NCBI GenBank assembly: GCA_025201345.1
Contig: JAIXMG010000022.1
Location: 434,001-498,000 of the forward strand
DNA length: 64,000 bases
Source of the DNA: Thamnidium elegans
Lineage: Eukaryota; Mucoromycota; Mucoromycetes; Mucorales; Mucoraceae
Reading direction: 5' to 3'
Shown here: positions 1,709 through 41,927 of the stretch, one piece after another
Layout of the letters: every line of letters begins with the position of its first letter
How positions within the stretch are numbered: the first letter of the stretch is position 1
The notes under the pieces: model-generated
The model's input: the letters and a program-made list of their open reading frames with translations, nothing else
Told to the model about the DNA's origin: nothing
Databases searched by the model: none
Position numbers and translations under genes: made by a program

Positions 1709-3350
1709 ATGGAAATCTATCATAAAAAACACTTGCAACGTAACCAAGATTATAAAGAATATCAACATACGATTGATAGTATACAAAATGCGTTACGTAG
1801 AGAGATACCACAGTTGATACAAGAGTTTGAATTAACGGTACAAGAAGCGACCGAAATTGATGAATTTGTAAACGATCGAGGTAAATATATATCTTACTTT
1901 AATATTTTTGCAGTACTAACGCAAATAGAAATAGCCACTATGTTTCGTTTTTTACGCAAGAATAATTATTCTTTACCCACAACACTTTCATTATTACTGG
2001 ACACAATCCGATGGAGAATCCTGGCTGATATTGACAAGATCCGAGTTTCAACAGTAACAGAATTTTTAACCCAACCACTGGTCTATTTCCACAAGGCAGA
2101 TAAATTGAACCGACCTGTCCTGATCGTCAATCTTGCATATTTGCCAAAAGCACCTGTAGGGTATGATGTCACTGAATTCTTGACGCCCCTTGTTATATTT
2201 GTGTTGGAAACGGCACGATTATTAATCTGGGATATGACAAAAGAAAGAACTGAACTAGGTGTAATAGATCCACTGATTATGGAAACTGTTGTATTGGTTG
2301 AATTTAAAAATGCCAATGCGTTACCTACGGTAATACTAAATTTATGTGCTGCAGTAGCTGTAGAAATTAATTTCCCTCTCCAATATAGGATATAACGTTA
2401 CTAAAGTCATTTATTGCACTATTAAGAAGATATCCTGGAATGACTGGTACAGTCAATTTACTTAATTTTGGCTGGATGTATCAAGGCCTTTGGCAAATGT
2501 GTAAATTAATATTATCTGAAGATGCAAAATCAAAAGTGAATTTTCCTAAAGTAAAAGATTTAAAGAACCTAATTGAAGAAAAAGATTTAATAACTGGTAA
2601 AAAAAAAAAAGTATATAATACATGTGTGGAAATATTCTTACAGTTCTGTGCTTTATAATAGAGTTTGGTGGAAAAGATGAATTTATATGGAATTCAATGA
2701 TTGATCCTTATTATGCAAAATATAGACCTTTTATTATTAGTCGTCGTAACTCCAACAGTTCAATGTATTATGATACAATAGATCCTTTTACCAGGCCACC
2801 ATCTTCATTTAGCGTATATGGTACACCTCTTGGATCATTAACTCCTGTAGCAAGCCATACCAACCTAAACAGTCTTGCAAAAGCATACTCTTCACTATCA
2901 CTTCAGTCTAAAATAGGTAATGGTATGCCACCAAGGCTTCGGTCTACCATCAAGACACTATTTGTTACACCTACATCGTCATCATCATCCACCACAGATC
3001 TTATTGGAGGAGTCCCTTCATGGGTTCTGTCAGAAAAATTAAATGCTATACATGATGAAACAAATAACAACAATAATAACAATAATAACAAATCTTGGTT
3101 ATTAAAGTTAATAATGAAATGTGAACATACAGTTCGGTATGTAACAATAAGAATATTAAAGAAAATGATTCGATACAAGAGTACATTTTATTGGATGATT
3201 GCATGCTTCCTGTTAAGAAATGGAGTTCAAGAACTTATTCAACATGTATTTATGCTAATGATGCAAGTAGTACTTGATTTTAATTCGGTCAGAGATACGG
3301 TCGGATTACGCAGTATACTTAGTCTAACTAATGGTCAAATGACTCTTTAA
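1709..3350 (+). CDS. CRAL-TRIO (Sec14-like) lipid-binding protein
   Basis: Three exons: 1709-2329, 2389-2596 and 2662-3350 (505 residues). The ATG at 1709 was chosen because the in-frame sequence upstream is a poly-A/T leader. Intron 1 (2330-2388) joins LPT to DITLLKS; intron 2 (2597-2661) joins DLIT to EFGGKDEF. The N-terminal helical part has FLRKNNYSLPTTLSLLLDTIRWR. The lipid-binding fold follows with RPVLIVNL, an LVEFKNAN strand, LLRRYPGMTGTVNLLN and the closing EFGG-K-DEF motif. The tail is low-complexity Ser/Thr-rich, contains a run of Asn (about nt 3063-3089) and ends with hydrophobic helices (about nt 3184-3276) that may associate with membranes. Members bind phosphoinositides or other hydrophobic ligands; the ligand here cannot be read. 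Confidence 0.85.
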
Positions 3351-3862: not shown

Positions 3863-4287
3863 GGTTATGTATGTTATGCGGTGCTAAAAGAAAAGAAAAA
3901 GAAAAGAAAAGAAGGGAAAAATTAAATTTATAGCCTACTTTTCTCTGTATAAACTACATGGCACATGTGATAAACAACATTTTATAATAAGGCATACAAG
4001 CTTAAATTATTTTAGCTCCCATTCCATCGTCATTGTACTTACACCGGACTTTTTCTATTTTGCAGTGTATACAGTATAATGTGCAACAACAACTAAATTT
4101 CTGTCATTCTTCAACAATTGGTTTGTTGGTCTCTCTTTTACAGTACCATTTTTATTTATTTTTACTCCTTTTTTTTTTTTTTTTTTTTTTTGCCCAGAAG
4201 GTATAAAGCAAAAAAATAAGCTTATTCTTTATTCTTTCTTTTTTTTTTTCTTTTTTGCACAATAATTAAAAAAAAAAAAAAACGCGA
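3863..4287. promoter_or_regulatory. Divergent intergenic region upstream of the GATA gene
   Basis: AT-rich spacer between two divergent genes. It holds a purine-rich AAAAG repeat at about 3886-3913, an 18-20 nt T run near 4170-4190 and more T/A runs up to the GATA gene ATG at 4288. No ORF or RNA gene is seen. Both promoters must lie here or nearby, but no specific element is identified. Confidence 0.4.
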
Positions 4288-5491
4288 ATGACTCAATACT
4301 ACTTTAATTTACCTTCATCTCAAACAACAACAACAACTAATAATAATAATAAAACAATTGACATGTCTTCTCAATCTATTTTACCACCACTAACGACTGA
4401 AGCTGAAAGGTAACCGCACGTCTCTTTTATATAATGTGTGTCTGTATAGCTAACATAATAATTATATCAGTAGAGCAGTAACAAATGATTTAAACGAGGT
4501 ATTTCTTTTTTTCTTTGTTGTTGTTGTAAACTGATTTTTTTATATTCATTAAATAAGGTTTACGGTTGTGCAGCACAAATTTCCAATCAATTACTGGTCG
4601 GGCCATCTATCATTAATGCGTCAGCTAAAAATAAAACGGTTCATTTACCCAGTATAAGTGAGCTTGACTGTATGATTGACAGTACCGGTAGAATGATGCG
4701 TGTATTAGACGATGCTAAGCATAAATGGTTTATTCCGTCTTCTCCCCCTTTACCTGTAACACAATATCGGACAGTTGTGTCAAATATACCACAAGATGGT
4801 CGTACTACTATAACAAAGCGTCCTTTCAAAAGACAGGTAAAAAAAAATTTACTGCACCAAAATACTATTAATGTCACTAATCTAATCTTTTTTTTTAAAA
4901 AAAAAAAAAAATAGCGTACGGTATCTTTAAACAATAATAAAGTGAAAAATAAATGTCATTCATGTAAAAGGTAAAGTGTGTTGCATACCATATGTAAAAA
5001 TTATCTGATTTTCTTTATGCTCTTTTTTAATAGCACTGAAACGCCCGAGTGGCGTAAAGGACCCCTAGGTTGGTTATTTTATATACATATACAACAAGAA
5101 TAATGTCAATTAAATACTAGATTTATATGTATAGGCCCTCGTACTTTGTGTAATGCATGCGGTCTAAGTATGTGCATTGTCTGAAAGAAAAAAAATAATT
5201 AAATCTTGTCGTACTAATTTCTTTGTTCTTTTTGCCTAGTTTGGACTAAACTTTGTAAACAACGACTTGACGACGATATCTCTAGAAGAAAGTTTAAAAA
5301 TAATTCATCAAACTCTTCATCAATTATATCCGACGACTGTAAAAAAAACACGCTTTTTTTTTTCTTTTTTTTTTTTGGTTTATAAATTAAACACTTTCTC
5401 TCCTTCTTTTATAGGTAATTCAGTCAACACTACCACTTCTTCAACTAGTTTAAATAACAAAAAATACACCCTTTCATTTTTATTATCTTAA
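4288..5491 (+). CDS. GATA-type zinc-finger transcription factor
   Basis: Eight exons with consistent phase: 4288-4409, 4471-4498, 4558-4836, 4915-4970, 5034-5068, 5135-5167, 5240-5338 and 5415-5491, giving 242 residues. The zinc finger is split over four exons: CHSCKS (exon 4), TETPEWRKGPL (exon 5), GPRTLCNACGL (exon 6), then WTKLCKQRL (exon 7). The spacing Cx2C...LCNACG is that of GATA fingers, and the ETPEWRKGP...RTLCNACGL wording is closest to WC-2/SREP-like fungal fingers. No PAS domain is present, so it is not a full WC-2 photoreceptor partner. The finger sits near the C-terminus with a short basic then Ser/Asn-rich tail. It should bind GATA sites in the nucleus; targets are unknown. Exon 2 has tandem acceptors (CAG then TAG). 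Confidence 0.88.
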
Positions 5492-5538
5492 AAAAAAAAT
5501 CCCTTCTCTTTTTTTATTGTAATAATATAATATCTTTT

Positions 5539-8090
5539 TTAAACGCTAGGAAAAGTAGCTTGTACACTACGCTTGATACGAAGCATTTCTTTAAATGTAT
5601 CTTCATTACCATGTTGAACTTCAAAGTCATGCCATGTTTTCCAAAATCCAGGCTGAGTCTATTTTTATAAAAAAAAAGGGGGGGGGGCGGTTAATTTTAA
5701 TAATATTCATTATGCGACTATTTCACTTACTCTTGGGTCAAATATTTGTGATGCAAATCCATAAATAGCACGTGCACGATCGATTTCACCTAATTTTCTT
5801 TCAAGTTCTGCATATCTTAAACTCATCACACGTACATCCTTATCGGGAAGGGCTTCAATAGCGCGTTCATAGATTTCACGTGAAGCCATGATACCAAAGG
5901 ACTCAGTTGCCTTGGCAATATAGTACTCAAACATCACCATGCGATCTTCATCCGCAACCGCTCTTGTAGCACGATCATAGATTCTCATTGCATGACGAGC
6001 CAACCCATGTTCCTCTTCCAACTTGCCGTACATTAAGTAAATGGGCTTAGCGTACTTGGGAGGACAGGCATCCAACGCCTGTTCGAACAAATCCCTTGCT
6101 CTTTCCAACTTGGTTCCACCATAACGTTTCAAAAATCTCTCTAAATAAATATTCCACAACTCAAACGCAATTGGCCAGCCAAACAATTCAATACCACGTT
6201 CGTATACCTTGAACGACTCTTCAAAGTACTGGTTTTCTTCCAAAAACGTAGCATAGTTCACAATCACTTGCGGGTTGGCGATTCTTAAATCCATCACTTG
6301 ATCGTACACTGACTTTGTACTTTCAATCGATCCCACACTTTCTTCAAGATCGATATAGAAACTCCATAATCGAAGACTTTTAAATACACGCTGTTGAACA
6401 GGGATAGACTCGTCGTGGAAATTCACTTGTTTAGGGTTCACGCTCAATAACTTTGGTATTTGCGTCGCTCTGGCCATCACTTCAAGAGCCGCATCGAAGT
6501 TATCATGACGTGTTTCCATTTCGGCGTATTCACACCAGACTTCAGCTAAATCATTGACATTCTTGTAATTGACCTTGACTGCCTTTTCAAATATAGCACG
6601 AGCAGATGCAACGTCGTCGCCGTCCTCGTAGAATTTAGCAAACTTGGCCCATAATTCATGTAATTTACCGTGTGCTCTTTTTGGGTTAATCGTCTGTACA
6701 GCTTGCGTATATGTCTCAACAACCTATAAGAAATAGATTAAACATATGCTATCTCCCATCTATCTTTTTTTTTTTTTACCTTTTCTTTGTTATCGCCCCA
6801 AAGTATCGCTCTTTGCTGCCACTCCAACACATTATTAGGGTTCTGTCTTAAAAGCACATCGTTTACCAAGAAGGGACGACGATCCATCAATCTCTCGAAC
6901 CTCAACAACCTCAAATCCAAATCCAAGTCTTCATCTTCATCTTTCTCACCCGCAGCCTCACGTTCAGCTGCCATTTCCATTTTCGTTGTGATCATTTCTT
7001 CTTCGAATTCAGCATAGGCGTCAAAGATGACTGTGAAATCTCGTACTGTCATAACGGTGGTAATACCTTCCTCAAAGATATCGCGTGCCTTTTCAATCTG
7101 TGCCATCTTGATCCAGTACATTGCCAATCGTGCGTACAAAATACCGACCTGATCTGTAAACCGCTTAATACCGCTTCGAATAATAGGCTCCACTTGCACG
7201 CTCTTAATATCCTCGCAATGGTCAACTGCTAGCTCGCATAACTGCTGCCATAACTGGTAGTGTGATTTTCCGCGAGAGGATGCAAATTTAGTGTTGTTGA
7301 CAATCTTGACAAGTTGAATAGCTGCTTCGTCATAGTGTCCAAGTTTAATTAAGCTGTCAATATAGTTTTCTACAAATGAAGGTTCCAACTAATATATTGT
7401 TTTAGTTTTACTTTTTTTTTTTTTTGAAAAAGAGTGCTTTTCTCTTTCTTTTTTTTTACCTTTAAATAACGACGATGAATACAAATGGCTGTTTCTCCAC
7501 CAGCTGCTTTAGCGAATTGTAAATAAAGATCCCAAATACGACCGTGTTGAGTGACAGGAAGAGCACGTAAAGCATTATCAAACGAACGTCTGGTTTTTGT
7601 AATCATGGGTAATGTAGTTAATAAAGAAAGATAATCTAACCAAATTCTAGGCATCTAATTAAAAAAAAAAAAAAAAAAAAAAAAAAGTTAGCTCACAGTC
7701 TCTTTTCTTTTTTTGCAAATGTTTACCTTGTTGAGTAGAACAAGAGAACGTTCATATAAAGCAATAACAGTACTATACAGAGATTTATGTCTAACAGCAT
7801 TCAACCCTTTCAATGTGTCGCGTCTAATATCAAGATACTGTTTCCATAACTTGTACGAGCCGGGTAATTCATTAAGTGCACGCTCATACACAAAATATAA
7901 CTCGTTGGCTGATCCATTACGTTTATGATCAATGTATCGTAACCAAACACGAAGTGAATAGGGGCTTCGAAGAAGTTCCTCTTCGTATGGTATATCGTGT
8001 TCGTTCTACATGTAATAGATTAGCGTGTGTATCTTTATTACTTTTTTGTTTTGCCCTTACAATCAAGAATTCTTCGTGATTGGCAACCAT
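5539..8090 (-). CDS. SYF1: Pre-mRNA-splicing factor SYF1 (HAT-repeat protein)
   Basis: Six exons, all joined in phase 0: 8090-8061, 8005-7727, 7654-7460, 7388-6780, 6723-5731 and 5658-5539, giving 741 residues. The protein is a chain of half-a-TPR (HAT) repeats: W..Y, A..IYERA and similar signatures recur throughout. [24 protein letters not shown] and the C-terminal [18 protein letters not shown] are characteristic of SYF1/XAB2, a scaffold of the NineTeen complex in the spliceosome, with a role in transcription-coupled repair in animals. The first exon is only 10 codons. It ends soon after MLRIKRSVQ, so it lacks the longer acidic tail of animal XAB2. The last intron holds a run of G (about 5681-5688), unusual for this AT-rich locus. 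Confidence 0.93.
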
Positions 8091-16460: not shown

Positions 16461-17371
16461 TAAATGGTAAATATGACTTGACACTCACAAAATTCATCGT
16501 AAATATAAACATTTCGGTATAACTATAGTAACAAGTTATGAGATACTTAAATAAATCACTGATTTTTTTTTTTTCATTGATGCATTAGAAAGCTACATTA
16601 TATTGCCACTTAGAGAAATAAAATAAAAGACAATAAGTTTACAGAGAATTATATAATAAAAGAATATAATTCAAGGGATCTTTATAAGTAAGAAACTGAA
16701 AATATAGAGTATAAAATATAGGTGAAAAATAAGATCGAATGTATTGATAAGTAAAATTATGTGGTATTTATATTCAAAGGTGTCCTTCGAATCTTGTAAA
16801 ATATCTAAAATATCAGAAATAACTTTGTTCCTTTTGATTCTAAATAATGTGTAATGAATAGATTTTTAATCTAGTTTGCAGTTTTTGTTCTAGTTAACTA
16901 ATATAATAAAATAAATTGATGTTTTTACAATCAGAAAGAACTAAACGTCATTATAGATGTAAATAAAGAGATGGAGTAACATATCTGATGTTAAATGAAG
17001 GATAAACTTGAGTAAAAGTAATAATAAAGTTAAGTGTGTAGAAATGTAACCGAAACTGAGGTTCGAAATGAAAAATAAACTAATAATCTGAAATAATAAT
17101 GGAGAATAAAATAATGATAGCAATTGATCTAGAAATAAAAAGGGTAATTTTGGTTCTGAAATTAAAAGTAATGAAAACGTGTAACAGGAGAAAAATAAAA
17201 CAGATCATTAAAAAGTGATGTGATAATAAACGGAGTGAAAATAATATTTGTTCAAATAAAAGTGTAAAATAGGGCTTTAAACCGGTACGATATTCTTCGA
17301 TTTGTAACATTGCTAATAGTAATTGCAAACAATATAAACGTCTCACCAAAATAGAAAAAGCAAAAAAGAAA
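16301..17371. other. Gene-poor AT-rich region
   Basis: About 1.1 kb with a 36-nt T homopolymer at 16423-16458 and otherwise featureless AT-rich DNA. The short minus-strand ORFs here are hydrophobic, unrelated to anything I recognise and consistent with chance in AT-rich sequence. Confidence 0.5.
16423..16458. repeat. Poly(T) tract, 36 nt
   Basis: Uninterrupted run of T. One of the longest homopolymers in the window. It could be the A-tail scar of a retrotransposed sequence on the minus strand, but no target-site duplication was found. Confidence 0.7.
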
Positions 17372-17445
17372 TGATTTCTGCCAGACTTGAACTGGCGACC
17401 GTCTGCGTGTTAAGCAGACGTGATAACCGACTACACCAAGAAACC
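17372..17445 (-). tRNA. tRNA-Val (anticodon AAC)
   Basis: Minus strand, 74 nt. The 7-bp acceptor stem pairs GGTTTCT with AGAAATC (one G-U). The anticodon arm is TCTGC-TTAACAC-GCAGA with anticodon AAC. The T arm is GCCAG-TTCAAGT-CTGGC. The discriminator base is A. No intron. A TTTTTT pol III terminator follows directly (plus strand A run at 17362-17367). The 5' end coincides with the left border of the retrotransposon at 17446. Confidence 0.95.
17431..17445. repeat. Target-site duplication, left copy
   Basis: CTACACCAAGAAACC, identical to 23444-23458. On the minus strand it is the start of the tRNA-Val, covering the acceptor stem and the beginning of the D arm. Confidence 0.93.
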
Positions 17446-17611
17446 ACCTTTCTTTCACTTTTAAAACACTTTTTTAAATTTCGTGTAACCACAATTTTGG
17501 CACTGTATAACCCTTAAATCTTACTCCGATACTCTAAAAAAAAAAAACAAAGATATCAATACAGCTAATAATTACTCCAAAAAAATAATAATAACGTAGA
17601 CTCTTACCTAA

Positions 17612-18308
17612 ATGGATAATTCTACTCCCTCTGGATCTCAATCTGGAGAAAACCCAACCTCTGCTATTAAACCAGCAGTTGCTACTACTACCATTAACTC
17701 ATCTGATAAAGATGTAGAACAAAAAAAAAATAATAATAATAACCAAAAAAACACTGAAAAAAATAACACTGAACAAAAAAATACTGAACAAAAAAATAAA
17801 AAAGAACAAGAAAATAAAAAAAATAATAAAAATATTATAGGAGGTAATAGTAGTAACTCTAAATATAACACTCGAACAGGAAAATCTGGCGTACCAATCC
17901 TAGTCACTCCTTCGTCTAGTGCATCATCAATTTATGCACCTACTCCTTCCACCACAACAAAATCAACAACATCAACAGGAAAAAGAGGTGCACCATCCAG
18001 CACCCCACCTCCCCTCTATGGATCCAATGAAACATTAATGTCTTCAGTGGACTTGCAAATAATGGAAGAATTCAAAGCAAATAGAGGCATAATCTGTTGC
18101 CCTAAATGCAATGAAAAAGGTACAATAAACAAAAACGGTCATACCAGAAACACCAAGCAACCAAGACCTCAATTTGTCTGTAAAGAATGCAAACAAATAA
18201 TCACTATACAACAGATAGAAACTGAAATTATCTCCGTAACAGGAAGTAATAAAAAAAGACTAACTGAAAAAATTAAGGAACAAAATCAACAAGAAGATAA
18301 GGTTTCCC

Positions 18309-18339
<31 letters not shown>

Positions 18340-18580
18340 TGAACAACAAAACGAACAACAAAATAAACCATCTGTTATTGAAGACTCCTCAGATGAAGAG
18401 GAATTATCTTCATACGACTTTGATGATGATATTCCTATGGAAGATGTGGATAATATTATCAACAAACACACAACAGCAACAAAAATAACAACAACGACAG
18501 CAACAACGACAACAACTACAATCTTGCAAACCGTGTATCGGAATTGGAACAAGGATTCCAAGGGATGCAACAAATTATAA
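17612..18580 (+). CDS. Retrotransposon ORF1, first frame
   Basis: A 322-codon ORF opening the element. It starts Ser/Thr/Asn-rich, continues through a long Lys/Asn/Glu low-complexity stretch (residues about 40-75) and a Ser/Thr-rich part. A zinc-ribbon-like segment follows at residues about 162-193 with CPKC and CKEC pairs flanking a KNGHTRNTK...FVCK stretch. It ends with a poly-Gln run and an acidic segment (SSDEEE, DDDIPMED). The CPxC...NG...FxCKxC pattern resembles the transposase-type zinc ribbons of bacterial elements, not the CCHC knuckles usual in ORF1 proteins. It terminates in a different frame shortly after the start of the coiled coil of the next ORF, so it is probably the N-terminal half of one nucleic-acid-binding ORF1 protein. 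Confidence 0.75.
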
Positions 18581-19575
18581 AAGAAAACATTGAACTGAAA
18601 AATGAAGTACAAAAACTAAAAAACCTTTTAAAAAATTACATGCAAGCTGAAAAAAATACTGAACAGTCAAATGCACAAAAAAATACACAAAAAAATATAC
18701 AAAAGAACACACAAAAAAATAATAATAACACTATTACTGAAAATAACAATTCTTCCAGTTTAGATGTAGGTTTTGAAATGGAATACCCAAACCTCACTAC
18801 AGATACTACTACATCTCAAACCAACACTGAACCCCCTATCTCTTATGCTCAGGTAACAAAAAGTAAAAAAAATCAATTTAGAAAAAAAAATATGAGATAC
18901 AGGTCAAACAATCCTACCGAAAAGGAATTGATTATAGCAGAACGAACTTTCCAGGAACGTGCCCCTGAAGATATAAATAAATTTTTATATGTATATGTAC
19001 CCGTTAAAAGACGTATGCGATCTAACGAGCTAAGAAAGAAATTAACATTATTAGGCATTGACAACATACAAGTCCTTGATGTATACTGTCCTGATTGGTC
19101 TGTAGCAGCCATCTTAGTACATGAAAAATACGTGGAAACAATTATGGACAAGTTCTCAAAAGCCAAAATCGAGCTTAAATCAGATTACAACCACATGGAT
19201 CCTATCCATATTAGAGACCCTAAGCTACAAAGCCTCACTATTGAAGAAAAACTGGAACAGTCCAAAAAAATATTTAACAATAACATGATGAGAGCATTAA
19301 GTGGCATGAGATACACAGCAAGATACTCTGTCGCACGTTGTTTTTTCAGGGACAACCTCATTACTCTAGAACAACTGCAATCCATCCTGAAAGGAAATAC
19401 AAGCAACAACAACATCAATAATAGTGGGTTTGTTGTAACATCATCAGCAACAGAAAATAACAATGACAATAGTACACAAGTAGATGTACTCATGGATGGA
19501 AGACAATTAACACCACTTGTACCATCAACTTTAGATACACCAACACCACCAATCATTAATCAATTAAATGAGTAA
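18544..19575 (+). CDS. Retrotransposon ORF1, second frame (coiled coil plus RRM-like domain)
   Basis: A 343-codon ORF in the -1 frame relative to the preceding one, overlapping it by 37 nt. The first residues form a coiled coil (IIKENIELKNEVQKLKNLL) and the same frame stays open upstream to about 18452. It then carries an Asn/Lys-rich spacer and an RRM-like region at residues about 140-215: FLYVYVPVKRRMRSNELRKK, IDNIQVLDVYCPDW, AAILVHEKYVETIM. This is the trimerisation-plus-RNA-binding architecture of LINE ORF1 proteins. Its stop codon overlaps the ORF2 start within ATGAGTAA. A frameshift near 18452-18540 separates it from the upstream half. Confidence 0.75.
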   Translation: MEQGFQGMQQIIKENIELKNEVQKLKNLLKNYMQAEKNTEQSNAQKNTQKNIQKNTQKNNNNTITENNNSSSLDVGFEMEYPNLTTDTTTSQTNTEPPISYAQVTKSKKNQFRKKNMRYRSNNPTEKELIIAERTFQERAPEDINKFLYVYVPVKRRMRSNELRKKLTLLGIDNIQVLDVYCPDWSVAAILVHEKYVETIMDKFSKAKIELKSDYNHMDPIHIRDPKLQSLTIEEKLEQSKKIFNNNMMRALSGMRYTARYSVARCFFRDNLITLEQLQSILKGNTSNNNINNSGFVVTSSATENNNDNSTQVDVLMDGRQLTPLVPSTLDTPTPPIINQLNE

Positions 19576-22500
19576 TAACACAACATATGAAAACTCTTTT
19601 TTTAAAATAGGCTTATTTAATGCAAATGGGCTTACATATGAAGCAATCGATAATATAATTAACTACTTGCCCTTACATACAAACATTCTTTTTATAACAG
19701 AAACATGGCTACTATCTCCAAGACGTTTAAACACTGACTGGGAACAACAAAACACATATGGCACTAAACGACTAAATTCATATACTGGACAAGATGGACT
19801 TTCATATATAGTCCATCCTGGCTTTCCTTTTCCAGTCATTCCAATCATTAACAATAATCCCCAGCATAACAAATACACAATATCATGTAGAATTCAAAAT
19901 CTAATTATTCACTGCTTTTATTTACCTCCTCGAGTATCTGATAGCTTATGCATGACAATTATACAATCCTTTATAGACCAATATGACGACTCCGAATATG
20001 ACGTTATTTTTTGTGGTGATTTTAATGCAAGGATGGGAATCCTAACAGGCGATTATCGCACAACAAATACAACACAAACACCTCGTACTAATAACAGAGG
20101 AAACCTTATGCTACCATTAATTATCAACAATGGATTAACTTTATGGAATGAAAAATTATGCTATGGCATACCAACTTACCTTACTGGAACAACTAATTCA
20201 ACAACAAATGTAAAATCAAGTATAATTGATTTCTTCCTCACAACTACAACAGACAAATTTTTATGCCCTGAAATGTCAATAGCAACTGACTTATCACTAG
20301 GATCAGATCACAAACTCGTAACTTTTGGGTTTCAATACCAATTCAACCAACCTACAGTCACTACAGAACAACAACATCCCCGTAAACTATGGAAAATAAA
20401 AAAGTTAAAACCAAAAGAAAAACGGGTAAAAACTGAATCATATGAAAAAAATATACTTAACTTTACAGATACACCACAATCCTCTCCTTCTAATACCTCT
20501 GATACCTATGATACCAATCCTTCTCCAAAAGAAACACAAGACACCAACTATGAACAAGATAATAAGTATATAAACAATTATCGAGACAAAATAATATTTT
20601 TTTTTCAAAATAGGGTAGAACCTCTATTTGAACAACCCTCACCCTCAATTAACTTGATTAACACAACAATCGTCGAATCTATTCAACAAGCACTGGATTC
20701 GTCAGTTGGTGAACAGAAAAAAAGAAAAAAGCATTGGCGTTGGTTCTGGAATGAACACCTACAGGAAGAAGCAACAAAAAGAGAACAGCTCTACAAAAAA
20801 TGGAATAGAGCACACGGTATCAACAAAATTGAATATTGGAAGTCACACCTGGAACAATCAGAAAAAGTAAGATCTCTAATCAAACAATACAAAAACAAAT
20901 ACTTTCGCTCTTTCTGCAACAAACTTTTGACAGATGAATATTCAAAAACACTGCAAAAATTAAAAACAATTCGACGTAGCAGAGATAAAACTGTTACATT
21001 CCAAAATGAAAATGGTCCTGCAGCAGCAGCTGAAATAATGGTAACAAAGTTAAATAATATATTTAAAGGACCACAGGATAATATACTTGCTACACTTGAT
21101 AGATACCCTGATATGGACCCATCAATTTTTGATGGTATTAATACTGGCACCAACATTACAACAGAATCAACACAATTAGATGAGAATGGCAACTCACTCC
21201 CTTTTACACTATGGCACATACAACAAGCCATCGAAGATCTCCCTACCAACAAAGCGCCTGGCATAGATCACCTAAAAGCAGAAATGTTCAAACCGATAAA
21301 TGAACACCTTTCAAAAATCTTATTTAAATTTTATGATTTATGTTGGAAACAAGGAAAAACACCAAAGGACTGGAATATCGCCCAAGTAATACCAATTTAC
21401 AAAAAAGATGATCCAACAGATGCAGCAAATTACAGACCGATCAGCCTAATATCAGCACTAAGAAAAATCTTTGAATTATGCCTATACCCAATACTGTTAA
21501 AAGTATCACCGGTAATAGATGTAGCACAAGGGGGATTTCGAGACCGAAGAAGCACCTTGGATCAAGCACTATGCCTACACCAAATAATGGCCCACCAAAA
21601 AAAAATTACCAGATCCCAGCAATACGTTGCTTTCCTGGATATTAAATCAGCCTACGACACTGTCAACAGAAATATCATTTGGAATTCATTACAAGAACAT
21701 GGAAAAATATCAACGTACTTCCTGAACATTTTAAAATACATGTTTGATAATATACTTGTGCAAGTTTTATTATCTGGTTACAGTTCATCTAACATACACC
21801 CCGAATTTGGTATACTACAAGGATCAACTTTATCTCCTCACTTGTATTCTATATTTATCAACTCGTTACCTACAGTACTGCGCGAAAGCATACCAGAAGT
21901 AACAGGTCAAATAAATATAGAATCAACTCCCTTTACAATTCGATATCCTCAACAACCTAATGACGTTAGTCTAGGTATAAACAGCCTATTATTTGCAGAC
22001 GATGTAGCATTAATTGCAACGAAAGAAAATTTACAACATTTACTAAATGTATCAGAACAGCATTCAATTACATTAAACTATAGATGGAATCCAAAAAAAT
22101 GTGCCATCCTTGTGCCAGACAATCAAACCGATATTGAGTTTAGATTATACCAAGAAATAGTATCAACGGTTACAATATTTAAATATTTAGGAATCCATTT
22201 TAATTCAAAAGGAATCAATTCAAAAAGTTTAATCATTGGAAACGCAACAAAAGCTGTCAACAGTATGAAAACCTTACATTTCCTCGGTGCCAACCATAAT
22301 GGTTTTGACAAATTTCTATCTCTCAAACTTTACAAATCATTTATTCGCCCTGTACTGGAATATGGAGTCTCAATCATTCGATCCAACAAAAAAGATTTCA
22401 AACTACTAGAAGATGCGCAAGACCAATGTGTACGATTGATGTTTAATGGTCACAAAACATCATCCACAAAAGTAATCCGTCACCTCAACAATACAGCATC

Positions 22501-23206
22501 AATGGAAGAGAGAATGGTTTCTTTAACAGCAAAAAATATCTTTAGAATTATAAACTTCCAAAGCCCTAAGTCACTTATCACAATAGTAAACAAAAAACTA
22601 CAACACGAAAATTATATCACCCACTGGATATATTTACAAAGACATAATCCAATATGGTGTATATTCGAAGCCTATTTACAAACAGACCCACTCATAGTTA
22701 GAAACAAAGGCGAACAATTAATACAACTGAAAAACAAAATCATAGAATGGCGAAAACAAAACCTAAAACAATTACAATCAAAACAAACATATCTTGGACT
22801 CTGCAACTCTGAATTAAGAAACGATCCAGTTATGTTTATACCAATGTCAAATTATGAAAGAAGTAGAGTACTTAGGTGGAAAATGGGGTGGCTCCCAGGT
22901 AAACCCCAAGTATGTCGAAACTGTAATAGCAATAATAGAACAACTCGCACTCATTTAACAACATGCTTACGCATTCACAACAAACTAAACATGTCAATAA
23001 TCTATATCTCACCAATAGATGAAGTACTAAATCACTTACCAAGATATACAATTACAAACAATTGGAAAAAAAATTACTGGCGTAGAGTATGGCCAATTGT
23101 TTGTGAATTACTCTTCAAAATAGAACAACTTTGTTTACCAGCAGAAGAAGAAGTAAACACGGATCCTCTTTTCGGCGATCCATTCCTGCAATCACTCAAA
23201 CCTTAA
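19568..23206 (+). CDS. Retrotransposon ORF2: APE-type endonuclease, reverse transcriptase
   Basis: A 1212-codon uninterrupted ORF. The N-terminal endonuclease has the exonuclease-endonuclease-phosphatase motifs: FNANGL, ITETWL, GDFNARMG (residues about 150), SIIDFFLT and the GSDH catalytic pair (about 244). The reverse transcriptase follows with IPIYKKDD...NYRPISL, GGFRDRRSTLDQA, AFLDIKSAYDTV, ILQGSTLSP, the FADD active site (809-812) and FKYLGIHF. Near the C-terminus a CRNC...HLTTC...H segment (about 1116-1140) is the usual LINE zinc knuckle. All catalytic residues I know for these domains are present, so the protein could be active. No RNase H domain was recognised. Confidence 0.95.
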   Translation: MSNNTTYENSFFKIGLFNANGLTYEAIDNIINYLPLHTNILFITETWLLSPRRLNTDWEQQNTYGTKRLNSYTGQDGLSYIVHPGFPFPVIPIINNNPQHNKYTISCRIQNLIIHCFYLPPRVSDSLCMTIIQSFIDQYDDSEYDVIFCGDFNARMGILTGDYRTTNTTQTPRTNNRGNLMLPLIINNGLTLWNEKLCYGIPTYLTGTTNSTTNVKSSIIDFFLTTTTDKFLCPEMSIATDLSLGSDHKLVTFGFQYQFNQPTVTTEQQHPRKLWKIKKLKPKEKRVKTESYEKNILNFTDTPQSSPSNTSDTYDTNPSPKETQDTNYEQDNKYINNYRDKIIFFFQNRVEPLFEQPSPSINLINTTIVESIQQALDSSVGEQKKRKKHWRWFWNEHLQEEATKREQLYKKWNRAHGINKIEYWKSHLEQSEKVRSLIKQYKNKYFRSFCNKLLTDEYSKTLQKLKTIRRSRDKTVTFQNENGPAAAAEIMVTKLNNIFKGPQDNILATLDRYPDMDPSIFDGINTGTNITTESTQLDENGNSLPFTLWHIQQAIEDLPTNKAPGIDHLKAEMFKPINEHLSKILFKFYDLCWKQGKTPKDWNIAQVIPIYKKDDPTDAANYRPISLISALRKIFELCLYPILLKVSPVIDVAQGGFRDRRSTLDQALCLHQIMAHQKKITRSQQYVAFLDIKSAYDTVNRNIIWNSLQEHGKISTYFLNILKYMFDNILVQVLLSGYSSSNIHPEFGILQGSTLSPHLYSIFINSLPTVLRESIPEVTGQINIESTPFTIRYPQQPNDVSLGINSLLFADDVALIATKENLQHLLNVSEQHSITLNYRWNPKKCAILVPDNQTDIEFRLYQEIVSTVTIFKYLGIHFNSKGINSKSLIIGNATKAVNSMKTLHFLGANHNGFDKFLSLKLYKSFIRPVLEYGVSIIRSNKKDFKLLEDAQDQCVRLMFNGHKTSSTKVIRHLNNTASMEERMVSLTAKNIFRIINFQSPKSLITIVNKKLQHENYITHWIYLQRHNPIWCIFEAYLQTDPLIVRNKGEQLIQLKNKIIEWRKQNLKQLQSKQTYLGLCNSELRNDPVMFIPMSNYERSRVLRWKMGWLPGKPQVCRNCNSNNRTTRTHLTTCLRIHNKLNMSIIYISPIDEVLNHLPRYTITNNWKKNYWRRVWPIVCELLFKIEQLCLPAEEEVNTDPLFGDPFLQSLKP

Positions 23207-23387
23207 CTATACCTCTTTTTTTTGAAGTACATATATCTTATATTACTCAAATCTATCTCTTTCTCTCTACTTTTTATTTCACTGCTATTATTATAATAGC
23301 CACAATTCTCACCCTACATTATTTTTTATTTCCTTTACATATAAGGACTTTTTTTAGTTTCAATTTATTTTAACATTACAATCGAGG

Positions 23388-23421
23388 GAGTAACTAGTAC
23401 TCGCTTGTTCATCACGAACAA
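23388..23421 (+). other. Two stem-loops at the retrotransposon 3' end
   Basis: GAGTA-ACTAG-TACTC at 23388-23402 and TTGTTC-ATCAC-GAACAA at 23405-23421, followed by AATAAA and then the target-site duplication. Such 3' structures are used by some non-LTR reverse transcriptases to recognise their RNA. Function is inferred. Confidence 0.55.
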
Positions 23422-23443
23422 ACCTCAAAAATAAAGTCTTAAT

Positions 23444-23458
23444 CTACACCAAGAAACC
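23444..23458. repeat. Target-site duplication, right copy
   Basis: CTACACCAAGAAACC, identical to 17431-17445. The sequence after it (CTGTTGATTTTTAG) would be the original 5' flank of the tRNA-Val gene before insertion. Confidence 0.92.
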
Positions 23459-23817
23459 CTGTTGATTTTTAGACCAAGAATTATAATATGATCATTAAAC
23501 ATAAAAACGTAGCAATCACGTGATAACCCCGTGATAGTCACGCGGAAGTAAGCTACATCCACTACTTTTAGATATTATTAGAAAACAACATCAAATATGT
23601 TAGAAATTTGTATGTAAATACAAAGATACTGCGGTCGGAAGTAATAAACTCTTCAGATTCACGTGTAGATATATATTCCAAATAGTTTTATTACGAGGTA
23701 TATATTATAATGTAGTTAGATAAAGTAATATTTTAGCCAAAATATATTGCATCATAACAACCTTTGTTTTTTATTTAAATATTTTTACAGTGAATAATTA
23801 TTTTTTTTTTACGAGCC
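23459..23817. other. Original upstream flank of tRNA-Val, no gene
   Basis: AT-rich sequence between the element and the phosphate carrier gene. It has an ATCACGTGAT palindrome near 23516-23525 followed by further CGTGAT/TCACG motifs. No ORF or RNA is seen. Confidence 0.45.
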
Positions 23818-40724: not shown

Positions 40725-41927
40725 CTTGAAAGAATTGAAGTCTTTTTGTAACTGTTTAAAATAAAAATAGACGGTTCCCTTTTTTCGTTCTTTCTTCTAG
40801 GAAGCGAGATTAAATGGGCTTTACAATGGAAAGTTTTCAATGAGAGAAAGGAAAAAAGTAGATGAAACTAGAATTATAAAGTATTGGTTCAAAACTTCAT
40901 ATTAACACAACTGTTAGACGTCACGAATTGAGAAATTCTGGTTTTTAAAAAAAAAGGGGACATGCGATAGAAGAGAATGTATCACGACGTATCTAATTAA
41001 AAAAAAGTAGGATAGCCCTTTCAATACTATCAGTTAAGGTGCCTTACAGATTTGTTCGTTGTAAGAAAATACCTATTTTCTATTTTGATGTATATTTAAT
41101 TTTTGGGAAATCTTTTCTGGATTTGTTTTTATAAAGTTTGAGTTTATAAATGGAGAACAAGTTAATTATTTCTACATTAGCGATAAAAGCTTATATTCGT
41201 CTGAATTTTCAGAAAGATATCAAAATCCCGTCTTCCCCATTATAGCATTAATATGCAAAAAATTGAAATACTCGTTTTGTATGATTTTGACATAGAAAGT
41301 GCTGTGATGCTTCGTCGCGGGAAGCTTCAAGAACCCTACGACATAAGTGGTGACAGTGAAATACCCACTTATATATTTTATATTATAAATTAGATAAAGA
41401 TATCGTATGTTTAATGTTTAATAACATCGTTTAGCAACGGTTTTTATTGCGCTGTAAAATTTAAGCGACAAATGCGTCTTTATTCTTTTTTTCTAAAACG
41501 ATTATAACTAAGATTGATGTATAATTAAATTTTCGCTTTAGAATTCAATACCAAGTATCAATAGGTGACTTCTTTACATGTCCTATATATTATACATAAT
41601 TGACCATTCAAAGCCTTTTTTAAGATGAAAAATAAATGTCTTTTAAACGAATAATTCCATTCTACATATTCGAATTCAGTCTTCGCATATCGTGATAAGA
41701 CATATTGATTCCAGAAAATGTATCAATGCATGTGTCACTGGTAACTGAGACCTGTAGTCGTTTCTCGTATGTATAATTTCAAATTTAAAAGAGGATTTTT
41801 AGGCTTTAAACTTATTGAGGATTAAGTAAATCAGTTAGTGAACGCATAAAATAATGGTCTTTTACATTGAAAAAAACCTCAAGTACGTCTCACGATATTG
41901 AGAAAATTACAAAAAAGAAATGAAAGA
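40725..41927. other. Intergenic, no gene seen
   Basis: About 1.2 kb between the AP-1 gamma start and tRNA-Thr. AT-rich, no ORF of interest, no repeat recognised. Confidence 0.5.

Follow-up and report, generated by a model that had tools for sequence, protein, structure and literature searches.

A 64,000-nucleotide stretch of the Thamnidium elegans genome (assembly GCA_025201345.1, contig JAIXMG010000022.1, positions 434,001 to 498,000 of the forward strand; hereafter the window) contains a tRNA-Val(AAC) gene and, directly at its 5' end and in divergent orientation, a long interspersed nuclear element (LINE) of the apurinic endonuclease (APE) type. Comparison with the other copies in the assembly suggests that this is very probably a target-specific LINE of a Mucorales fungus, integrating at a fixed place in tRNA-Val(AAC) genes. 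The features of the locus are listed in Table 1.

A LINE at the 5' end of a tRNA-Val gene

Two exact copies of the 15-mer CTACACCAAGAAACC stand at the borders of the LINE. The tRNA-Val(AAC) gene is called on the minus strand by both ARAGORN (17371–17446) and Rfam (17372–17445), and with the Rfam boundaries the left copy of CTACACCAAGAAACC is exactly nucleotides (nt) 1–15 of the mature tRNA. A perfect 15-bp duplication around the element, a left copy equal to the start of the tRNA, and a tRNA left intact and divergent by the insertion had all been put forward in the original prediction, and the exact matches and the two tRNA calls bear them out. The description of the element as full-length holds for its 5,998 bp and fails for its coding sequence, as the first open reading frame (ORF1) stops after 322 amino acids (aa) and then continues in another frame. 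At up to three mismatches CTACACCAAGAAACC has three matches in the window, a number that is not unusual, since 24 of 100 shuffles reach three; the weight rests on the two exact matches at the element ends and not on the window count.

Table 1. Coordinates of the tRNA-Val gene, the LINE and associated features in the window.
Feature	Position	Strand	Details
tRNA-Val(AAC) gene, intact	17372..17445	-	Rfam 60.4 bits; mature sequence same in the 9 genomic copies found
Left copy of 15-bp target-site duplication	17431..17445	+	tRNA nt 1–15, reverse complement
LINE	17446..23443	+	5,998 bp; divergent from tRNA-Val
5' untranslated region of LINE	17446..17611	+	serves now as tRNA upstream flank
ORF1, first frame	17612..18580	+	322 aa; cysteine zinc-ribbon-like motif; frameshift interrupts window copy
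ORF1, second frame	18544..19575	+	343 aa as listed
ORF2	19568..23206	+	1212 aa; apurinic-type endonuclease and reverse transcriptase
Endonuclease domain	19616..20320	+	ORF2 aa about 17–251
RVT_1 domain	21401..22201	+	ORF2 aa 612–878
Two stem-loops inside closing stem	23384..23426	+	close to RNA 3' end
Right copy of 15-bp target-site duplication	23444..23458	+	
Displaced native 5' flank of tRNA-Val gene	23459..23500	+	

The LINE encodes two ORFs, with the ORF1 stop and the ORF2 start codon overlapping in ATGAGTAA, as read from the sequence. In ORF2, RVT_1 (E 2e-27) and Exo_endo_phos_2 (PF14529, E 9e-9) both pass the Pfam cut-off, and Exo_endo_phos (PF03372, E 1.5e-4) falls under its own; no RNase H domain was found in the Pfam search at E up to 0.1. 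The protein contains FNANGL, ETWL, GDFNA and GSDH, which we take to be apurinic-type endonuclease motifs, and among solved structures it comes closest to 8c8j (E 2.7e-19), whose name is RNA-directed DNA polymerase, and to LINE-1 ORF2p (E 7.3e-19). The element thus combines the three marks of an APE-type LINE: an apurinic-type endonuclease domain, a LINE-type reverse transcriptase and a target-site duplication.

The named relatives of ORF2 are mostly from Mucorales—Mucor saturninus (32–43% identity), Rhizopus stolonifer (33%), Mucor velutinosus (29–33%) and others—and one relative, P0001, is 82% identical and lies on a 7.7-kb metagenome contig; a scan of viral contigs found none. For a 397-aa fragment of the chaperonin CCT theta encoded in the window, Helicostylum pulchrum is nearest among the best 120 of 5,801 matches, at 97% identity, and Mucor mucedo stands at 90%. 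The fragment and the named ORF2 relatives both point to Mucorales, in agreement with the fungal host supposed earlier.

ORF1 carries a zinc-ribbon-like CxxC...CxxC motif (18092–18200), for which the sole Pfam hit is a sub-threshold Dof-type match (E 0.003) and which presumably resembles the IS1 InsA type; a search for homologues of this stretch gave no matches from 12 candidates. No ribozyme was found at the LINE 5' end, where Rfam at E up to 1 returned nothing beyond the tRNA and a single snoRNA-like match under the threshold.

Copies of the LINE and occupied tRNA-Val genes

The host assembly (34.1 Mb, 64 contigs) was searched for further copies; the genome searches scored the best candidates only, and copy counts are lower bounds. 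ORF2 gave 24 matches, nine at 69% identity or more and the remaining 15 at 23–44%. The nine fall in six places: the window (on contig C15), a young and an older copy on C1, and C13, C31 and C17. The LINE 5' region gave 87 matches, of which those on C15, C1, C31 and C13 and at C64:357.6–358.7 kb were counted as LINE; the remainder are mostly to the Q-rich repeat part of ORF1. tRNA genes were sought around the LINE matches at 19 loci (L011–L022 and L024–L030; L021 overlaps L023).

Nine tRNA-Val(AAC) genes were found, with identical mature sequences. The exact 15-mer occurs 12 times in the assembly, once in each of these genes and at three LINE 3' ends (C15:457444, C1:2403072 and C13:315461). There are 15 additional matches with one mismatch, eight of them within tRNA-Pro(AGG) genes; the reversed 15-mer, used as a control, has five matches at up to one mismatch. 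The LINE 3' untranslated region together with the 15-mer (23207–23458) is found at three places, twice complete and once over 74 nt. All three 3' ends terminate in the 15-mer and each lies in a tRNA-Val(AAC) locus, so that the tabulation of flanks suggested in the original prediction comes out in favour of targeting. All three 3' ends thus share a single exact site within a multicopy RNA gene, the behaviour known from R2, three cases being the whole sample.

LINE sequence lies 5' of four of the nine tRNA-Val genes, in each case divergent, directly at C15 and C1 and behind long terminal repeat (LTR)-like sequence at C64 and C13. The 15-bp duplication is exact at C15 and C1 and also bounds the C13 stretch at both ends. 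The young C1 copy (C1:2396999) is 99.8% identical to the window copy over 6,102 aligned bp including the tRNA, with the same first and last bases. Their lesions differ: the window copy has the interrupted ORF1 and an open ORF2, and the C1 copy has ORF1 open for 653 aa and an ORF2 that stops after 494 aa, so that full coding capacity is demonstrated in neither. An older, broken LINE is situated beyond the young C1 copy, and its broken end is succeeded by an extended tract of AATAAAAG-like repeats (L026, about 3150–3350).

The other two occupied genes have more complex structures. At C13:316991 a 1,515-bp stretch between two 15-mers contains LTR-like sequence, parts of ORF1 and a LINE 3' end (85% identical); it has no ORF2 match, and an ORF2 fragment starts at most about 10 nt from the second 15-mer. 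At C64:360932 the LINE 5' end is 2.2 kb away from the tRNA, with LTR-like sequence at both ends of the interval, and the 12 nt adjoining the tRNA align, together with the post-LTR sequence, to the LINE 5' end; the 12-nt head by itself reaches an equal score by chance in 20 of 2,000 trials. We read this locus as one where the LINE probably arrived at the tRNA first and an LTR element inserted later, 12 nt away.

That a single occupied locus was duplicated, or spread by gene conversion, could also produce a repeated association. The near-identity of the C15 and C1 copies fits such an origin, as does a composite 5' end common to the older C1 copy (L026, about 1088–2390) and the C13 copy (L029, about 4690–5990), which consists of 10–11 nt, about 140 nt of LTR-like sequence and LINE that begins near position 909. 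C1 and C13 also have short stretches in common 3' of the tRNA, 78–81% alike, the two longer ones inverted. The C15 and C1 loci, however, share no similarity over 3 kb 3' of the tRNA or past the second 15-mer, and we regard duplication or conversion as a very unlikely source of the association as a whole. Conversion could link the older C1 and C13 copies, and their composite 5' end may be one event spread either in this way or by retrotransposition of a chimera.

At the other five tRNA-Val genes only chance-level LINE matches were found in 1.5 kb of 5' flank. These unoccupied genes carry the 15-mer once, and the 5' flanks of most of them share a motif near TTGTTGTTNTTTNNACCAAAAT. A position matrix was made from the first 40 nt of the five unoccupied 5' flanks, and both strands of the window were scanned with it (127,922 positions). 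The best position is 23458, with a score of 21.0 (the next is 16.1), one base before the predicted start; in leave-one-out comparisons four of the five source flanks score 19.8–25.2. We conclude that in the window the insertion pushed the native tRNA flank to the far side of the LINE.

The displaced flank speaks against a tandem 15-mer that existed before the insertion, one of two findings named in advance as counting against targeting; it was not borne out, the unoccupied genes having a single 15-mer and the distal window flank being like their 5' flanks. The displaced flank also speaks against a tRNA gene that belongs to the element and moves with it. A tRNA-headed LINE of that kind would explain why the tRNA adjoins the LINE in both full-length copies; on the other side, five of the nine identical tRNA-Val genes lack LINE in the 1.5 kb examined, the distal side of each insertion repeats just 15 nt of the tRNA, and a tRNA carried inside the element is contradicted by the native tRNA 5' flank beyond the window element. 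We consider this origin highly improbable.

Target choice and the proposed route of insertion

Targeting is supported by the 15-bp duplication of tRNA nt 1–15, the divergent orientation, the same 3' junction in three of three cases, the intact tRNA and the displaced window flank. The other finding named in advance, copies scattered at non-tRNA sites, is represented only by two fragments that lack the LINE ends, C31:1413–3400 (L027, 99% identical) and C17:553282–554694 (L028:3283–4695, 95% identical). They are the only ORF2 matches of at least 69% identity that are distant from tRNA genes. One stops where the other begins, near LINE position 4004–4007, as though a single copy had been split in two by an insertion or rearrangement. 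With neither LINE end present they are uninformative on the target. Chance landings at these genes, by a LINE that has no target and whose endonuclease shows a weak preference, could claim the two fragments (95–99% identical and away from tRNA genes) in their favour, yet all three 3' ends lie at a 15-mer that is otherwise exact only in nine tRNA-Val genes of a 34-Mb assembly, and the probability we give to chance is close to negligible.

Several observations weigh against the targeting reading. The copies are few, with three 3' ends and two young insertions, and no tRNA gene lies in the 9 kb around either the C31 or the C17 fragment. The 5' junctions of the older C1 and C13 copies are indirect because of their composite LTR-like 5' end, and are not counted as clean. 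In the flank analysis one of the five source flanks fails the leave-one-out comparison (-11.2), and the predicted position itself, 23459, scores -4.5, a value that 4,025 positions reach and that results from the one-base shift. When the C1, C13 and C64 stretches were scanned with the matrix, no displaced flank stood out (best 8.5–13.5), and the sequence adjoining the C13 tRNA scores 12.3 one base off, so that it is possibly native flank and not LINE. The outer stem that closes the structure of the RNA 3' end is not conserved in C13, and the fold z-scores are modest. Finally, the absence of the LINE from tRNA-Pro(AGG) genes is not significant at so few insertions (9/17 to the fourth power, about 0.08).

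The last point concerns a candidate second target that was rejected. The tRNA-Pro(AGG) genes match the target at 14 of 15 bases, and their flank starts with GCCTTTCTTTC, similar to the LINE start ACCTTTCTTTC; the 1.5-kb flanks of all eight genes contain no LINE, with DNA and protein matches at chance level only (best E 0.017).

At the RNA 3' end, the stem-loops have fold z-scores of -2.0 and -2.2 in the window and -1.0 in C13, and between the window and C13 hairpins one pair change is compensatory, two are to G-U and none is broken (by eye). An oligo(A) or poly(A) tail is absent at all three 3' junctions. AATAAA stands 8 nt before the LINE end at C15 and C1, and 6 nt before it at C13.

We propose that insertion would proceed by target-primed reverse transcription, beginning with a nick that the ORF2 endonuclease makes at the nt 15/16 junction of the tRNA-sense strand (GGTGTAG/TCGG); under this mechanism the first nick is assigned to that strand because the 3' junction is the tRNA-internal edge of the duplication. 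By standard tRNA numbering such a nick presumably falls inside the A box. The freed ...GGTGTAG 3' end would prime reverse transcription of the LINE RNA from its 3' end, which has stem-loops and no poly(A), and the second strand would be cut at the mature tRNA 5' end. A transcript cleaved past AATAAA would run into target sequence and may pair with the primer, and transcripts extending into CUACACCAAG would account for junctions without poly(A). Because the stagger spans tRNA nt 1–15, repair would restore the tRNA gene and leave a half site beyond the element, and the restored gene would be open to further insertion. Of the two C1 elements it is the younger that adjoins the tRNA. This suggests that the distal half site goes unused, a suggestion from one clear case and weak evidence.

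How the target is chosen is a separate question. At least 80 tRNA genes were listed (63 + 9 + 8, the tRNA search having scored 63 of 1,882 candidates), and all four occupied genes found are tRNA-Val(AAC). If the listed tRNAs were equally likely targets and the insertions independent, three further landings on nine tRNA-Val genes by chance would have a probability of about (9/80)^3 = 0.0014. Tethering of the element to genes of RNA polymerase III (Pol III) by TFIIIB or TFIIIC, as inferred for TRE5 of Dictyostelium and without any sequence specificity of its own, would agree with the divergent orientation upstream of the tRNA (also as in TRE5), with the position of the proposed nick inside the A box, and with the LTR elements of the same genome that also lie near tRNA genes. 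Tethering predicts many tRNA species and varying distances, though, and the four occupied genes are of one species with one exact 3' junction; by itself it appears unlikely, and a mixed model of tethering and sequence choice is possible.

Since the occupied genes are all tRNA-Val(AAC), we favour with moderate confidence that the ribonucleoprotein reads the tRNA-Val gene sequence directly, possibly helped by Pol III factors that open the gene. The complete scheme—a LINE that reads one tRNA gene species directly, nicks in the A box and by its 15-nt stagger rebuilds a working tRNA, so that insertions may stack without cost to the tRNA—is one to which we give even chances.

Related systems and other elements near tRNA genes

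LINEs that target tRNA genes are already known (TRE5, NLTR-A and the zebrafish element Dewa, a Tx1-type APE LINE); none of the papers listed has a fungal one that is confined to a single tRNA species and sits exactly at its 5' end. In the literature consulted, tRNA-gene LINEs are best described in social amoebae, and animals and protists contribute isolated examples (PMC5911963, PMC5006619, PMC3706591, PMC4640811). Dictyostelium TRE5-A resembles the window LINE in its APE endonuclease and reverse transcriptase, its two ORFs, and its location 5' of the tRNA in opposite orientation (PMC5911963). TRE5 elements lie 40–54 bp upstream of the mature tRNA, in opposite orientation and with an oligo(A) end (PMC5911963), whereas the window LINE is at 0 bp in both full-length copies, lacks poly(A) and was found at one tRNA species. 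NLTR-A of D. purpureum is, like the window LINE, very near the tRNA 5' end, at 2–6 bp upstream (PMC5006619, PMC5911963), and differs in not starting at tRNA nt 1 and in carrying RNase H, a domain for which the window ORF2 gave no Pfam match.

Dewa, compared by description only, is likewise target-specific at a tRNA locus, but in the tRNA-Leu spacer (PMC3706591). NeSL-1_TV, LIN15_SM and LIN25_SM are specific for tRNA-Pro, -Arg and -Glu genes, much as the window LINE appears to be for tRNA-Val, and are grouped with the NeSL clade, whose endonuclease is restriction-like (PMC4640811), against the apurinic type of the window LINE. The original prediction had called precise tRNA-adjacent targeting by a LINE rare; that stands, with the reservation that NLTR-A at 2–6 bp and Dewa in the tRNA-Leu spacer are precedents close to a tRNA. 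One source describes tRNA targeting by TREs as unique to dictyostelids (PMC5006619).

Among fungi, Grem-LINE1 of Mucor is an L1-like LINE of Mucoromycotina described from pericentric regions, unlike the window LINE (PMC7377519; compared by description only), and for Candida and Yarrowia LINEs the sources name poly(A) sites, subtelomeres or AT-rich sites. Among the papers listed in the literature searches, with subscription papers and repeat databases lying outside them, none describes a LINE in fungi that has a tRNA gene as its specific target. A LINE of fungi that is precise to the nucleotide and has just one tRNA species as target would probably represent a separate origin of the same safe-site strategy. 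Nine identical target genes, five of them apparently free, offer a direct test of DNA sequence against Pol III factors, and a self-restoring cut would be of practical interest for placing DNA beside a tRNA gene without damage to it.

Rhizopus oryzae Ty3/gypsy elements are Mucorales retrotransposons that often co-localise with tRNA genes (PMC2699053); they are of the LTR class, and it is of these Ty3 elements, not of LINEs, that the co-localisation is stated. The LTR elements of the present genome seem to favour tRNA genes in the same way. A reverse transcriptase match lies within 5 kb of 16 of 72 tRNA genes (63 scored and nine tRNA-Val, the eight tRNA-Pro excluded), about 1.5 being expected under uniform placement; the count used 74 of 150 reverse transcriptase matches, with three LINE-type and 73 weaker ones excluded. 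The distances are often 2.7–3.1 or 3.6–4.0 kb, and in some pairs (C53, C61) a single locus seems to be present in duplicate.

One LTR element (TGTCAATCTG...ACTTACA) starts 9–12 nt upstream of at least four of the eight tRNA-Pro(AGG) genes (L055, L059, L060 and L061), and so not at nt 1 as the LINE does; it is about 513 nt long in an apparently solo copy (L059), and this placement is a Ty3-like position. Related sequence is present at a tRNA-Val gene (C64:358.7–360.9 kb). A related LINE at a tRNA-Ala gene on C16 (L021) was considered and rejected, as the tRNA is about 1 kb past the LINE fragment and its immediate neighbour is an element with inverted repeats. By eye, that element (L021:2187–2938) is about 680 bp, has long inverted repeats and ends at the 5' end of the tRNA-Ala(AGC).

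A 10-mer near ACGTCTCACG lies about 20–35 nt from the 3' end of all nine tRNA-Val genes (L031–L039), with at most one mismatch, by eye. It is also present by the window tRNA-Thr, the window positions being 17338–17347 and 41885–41894, and is possibly a Pol III related signal.

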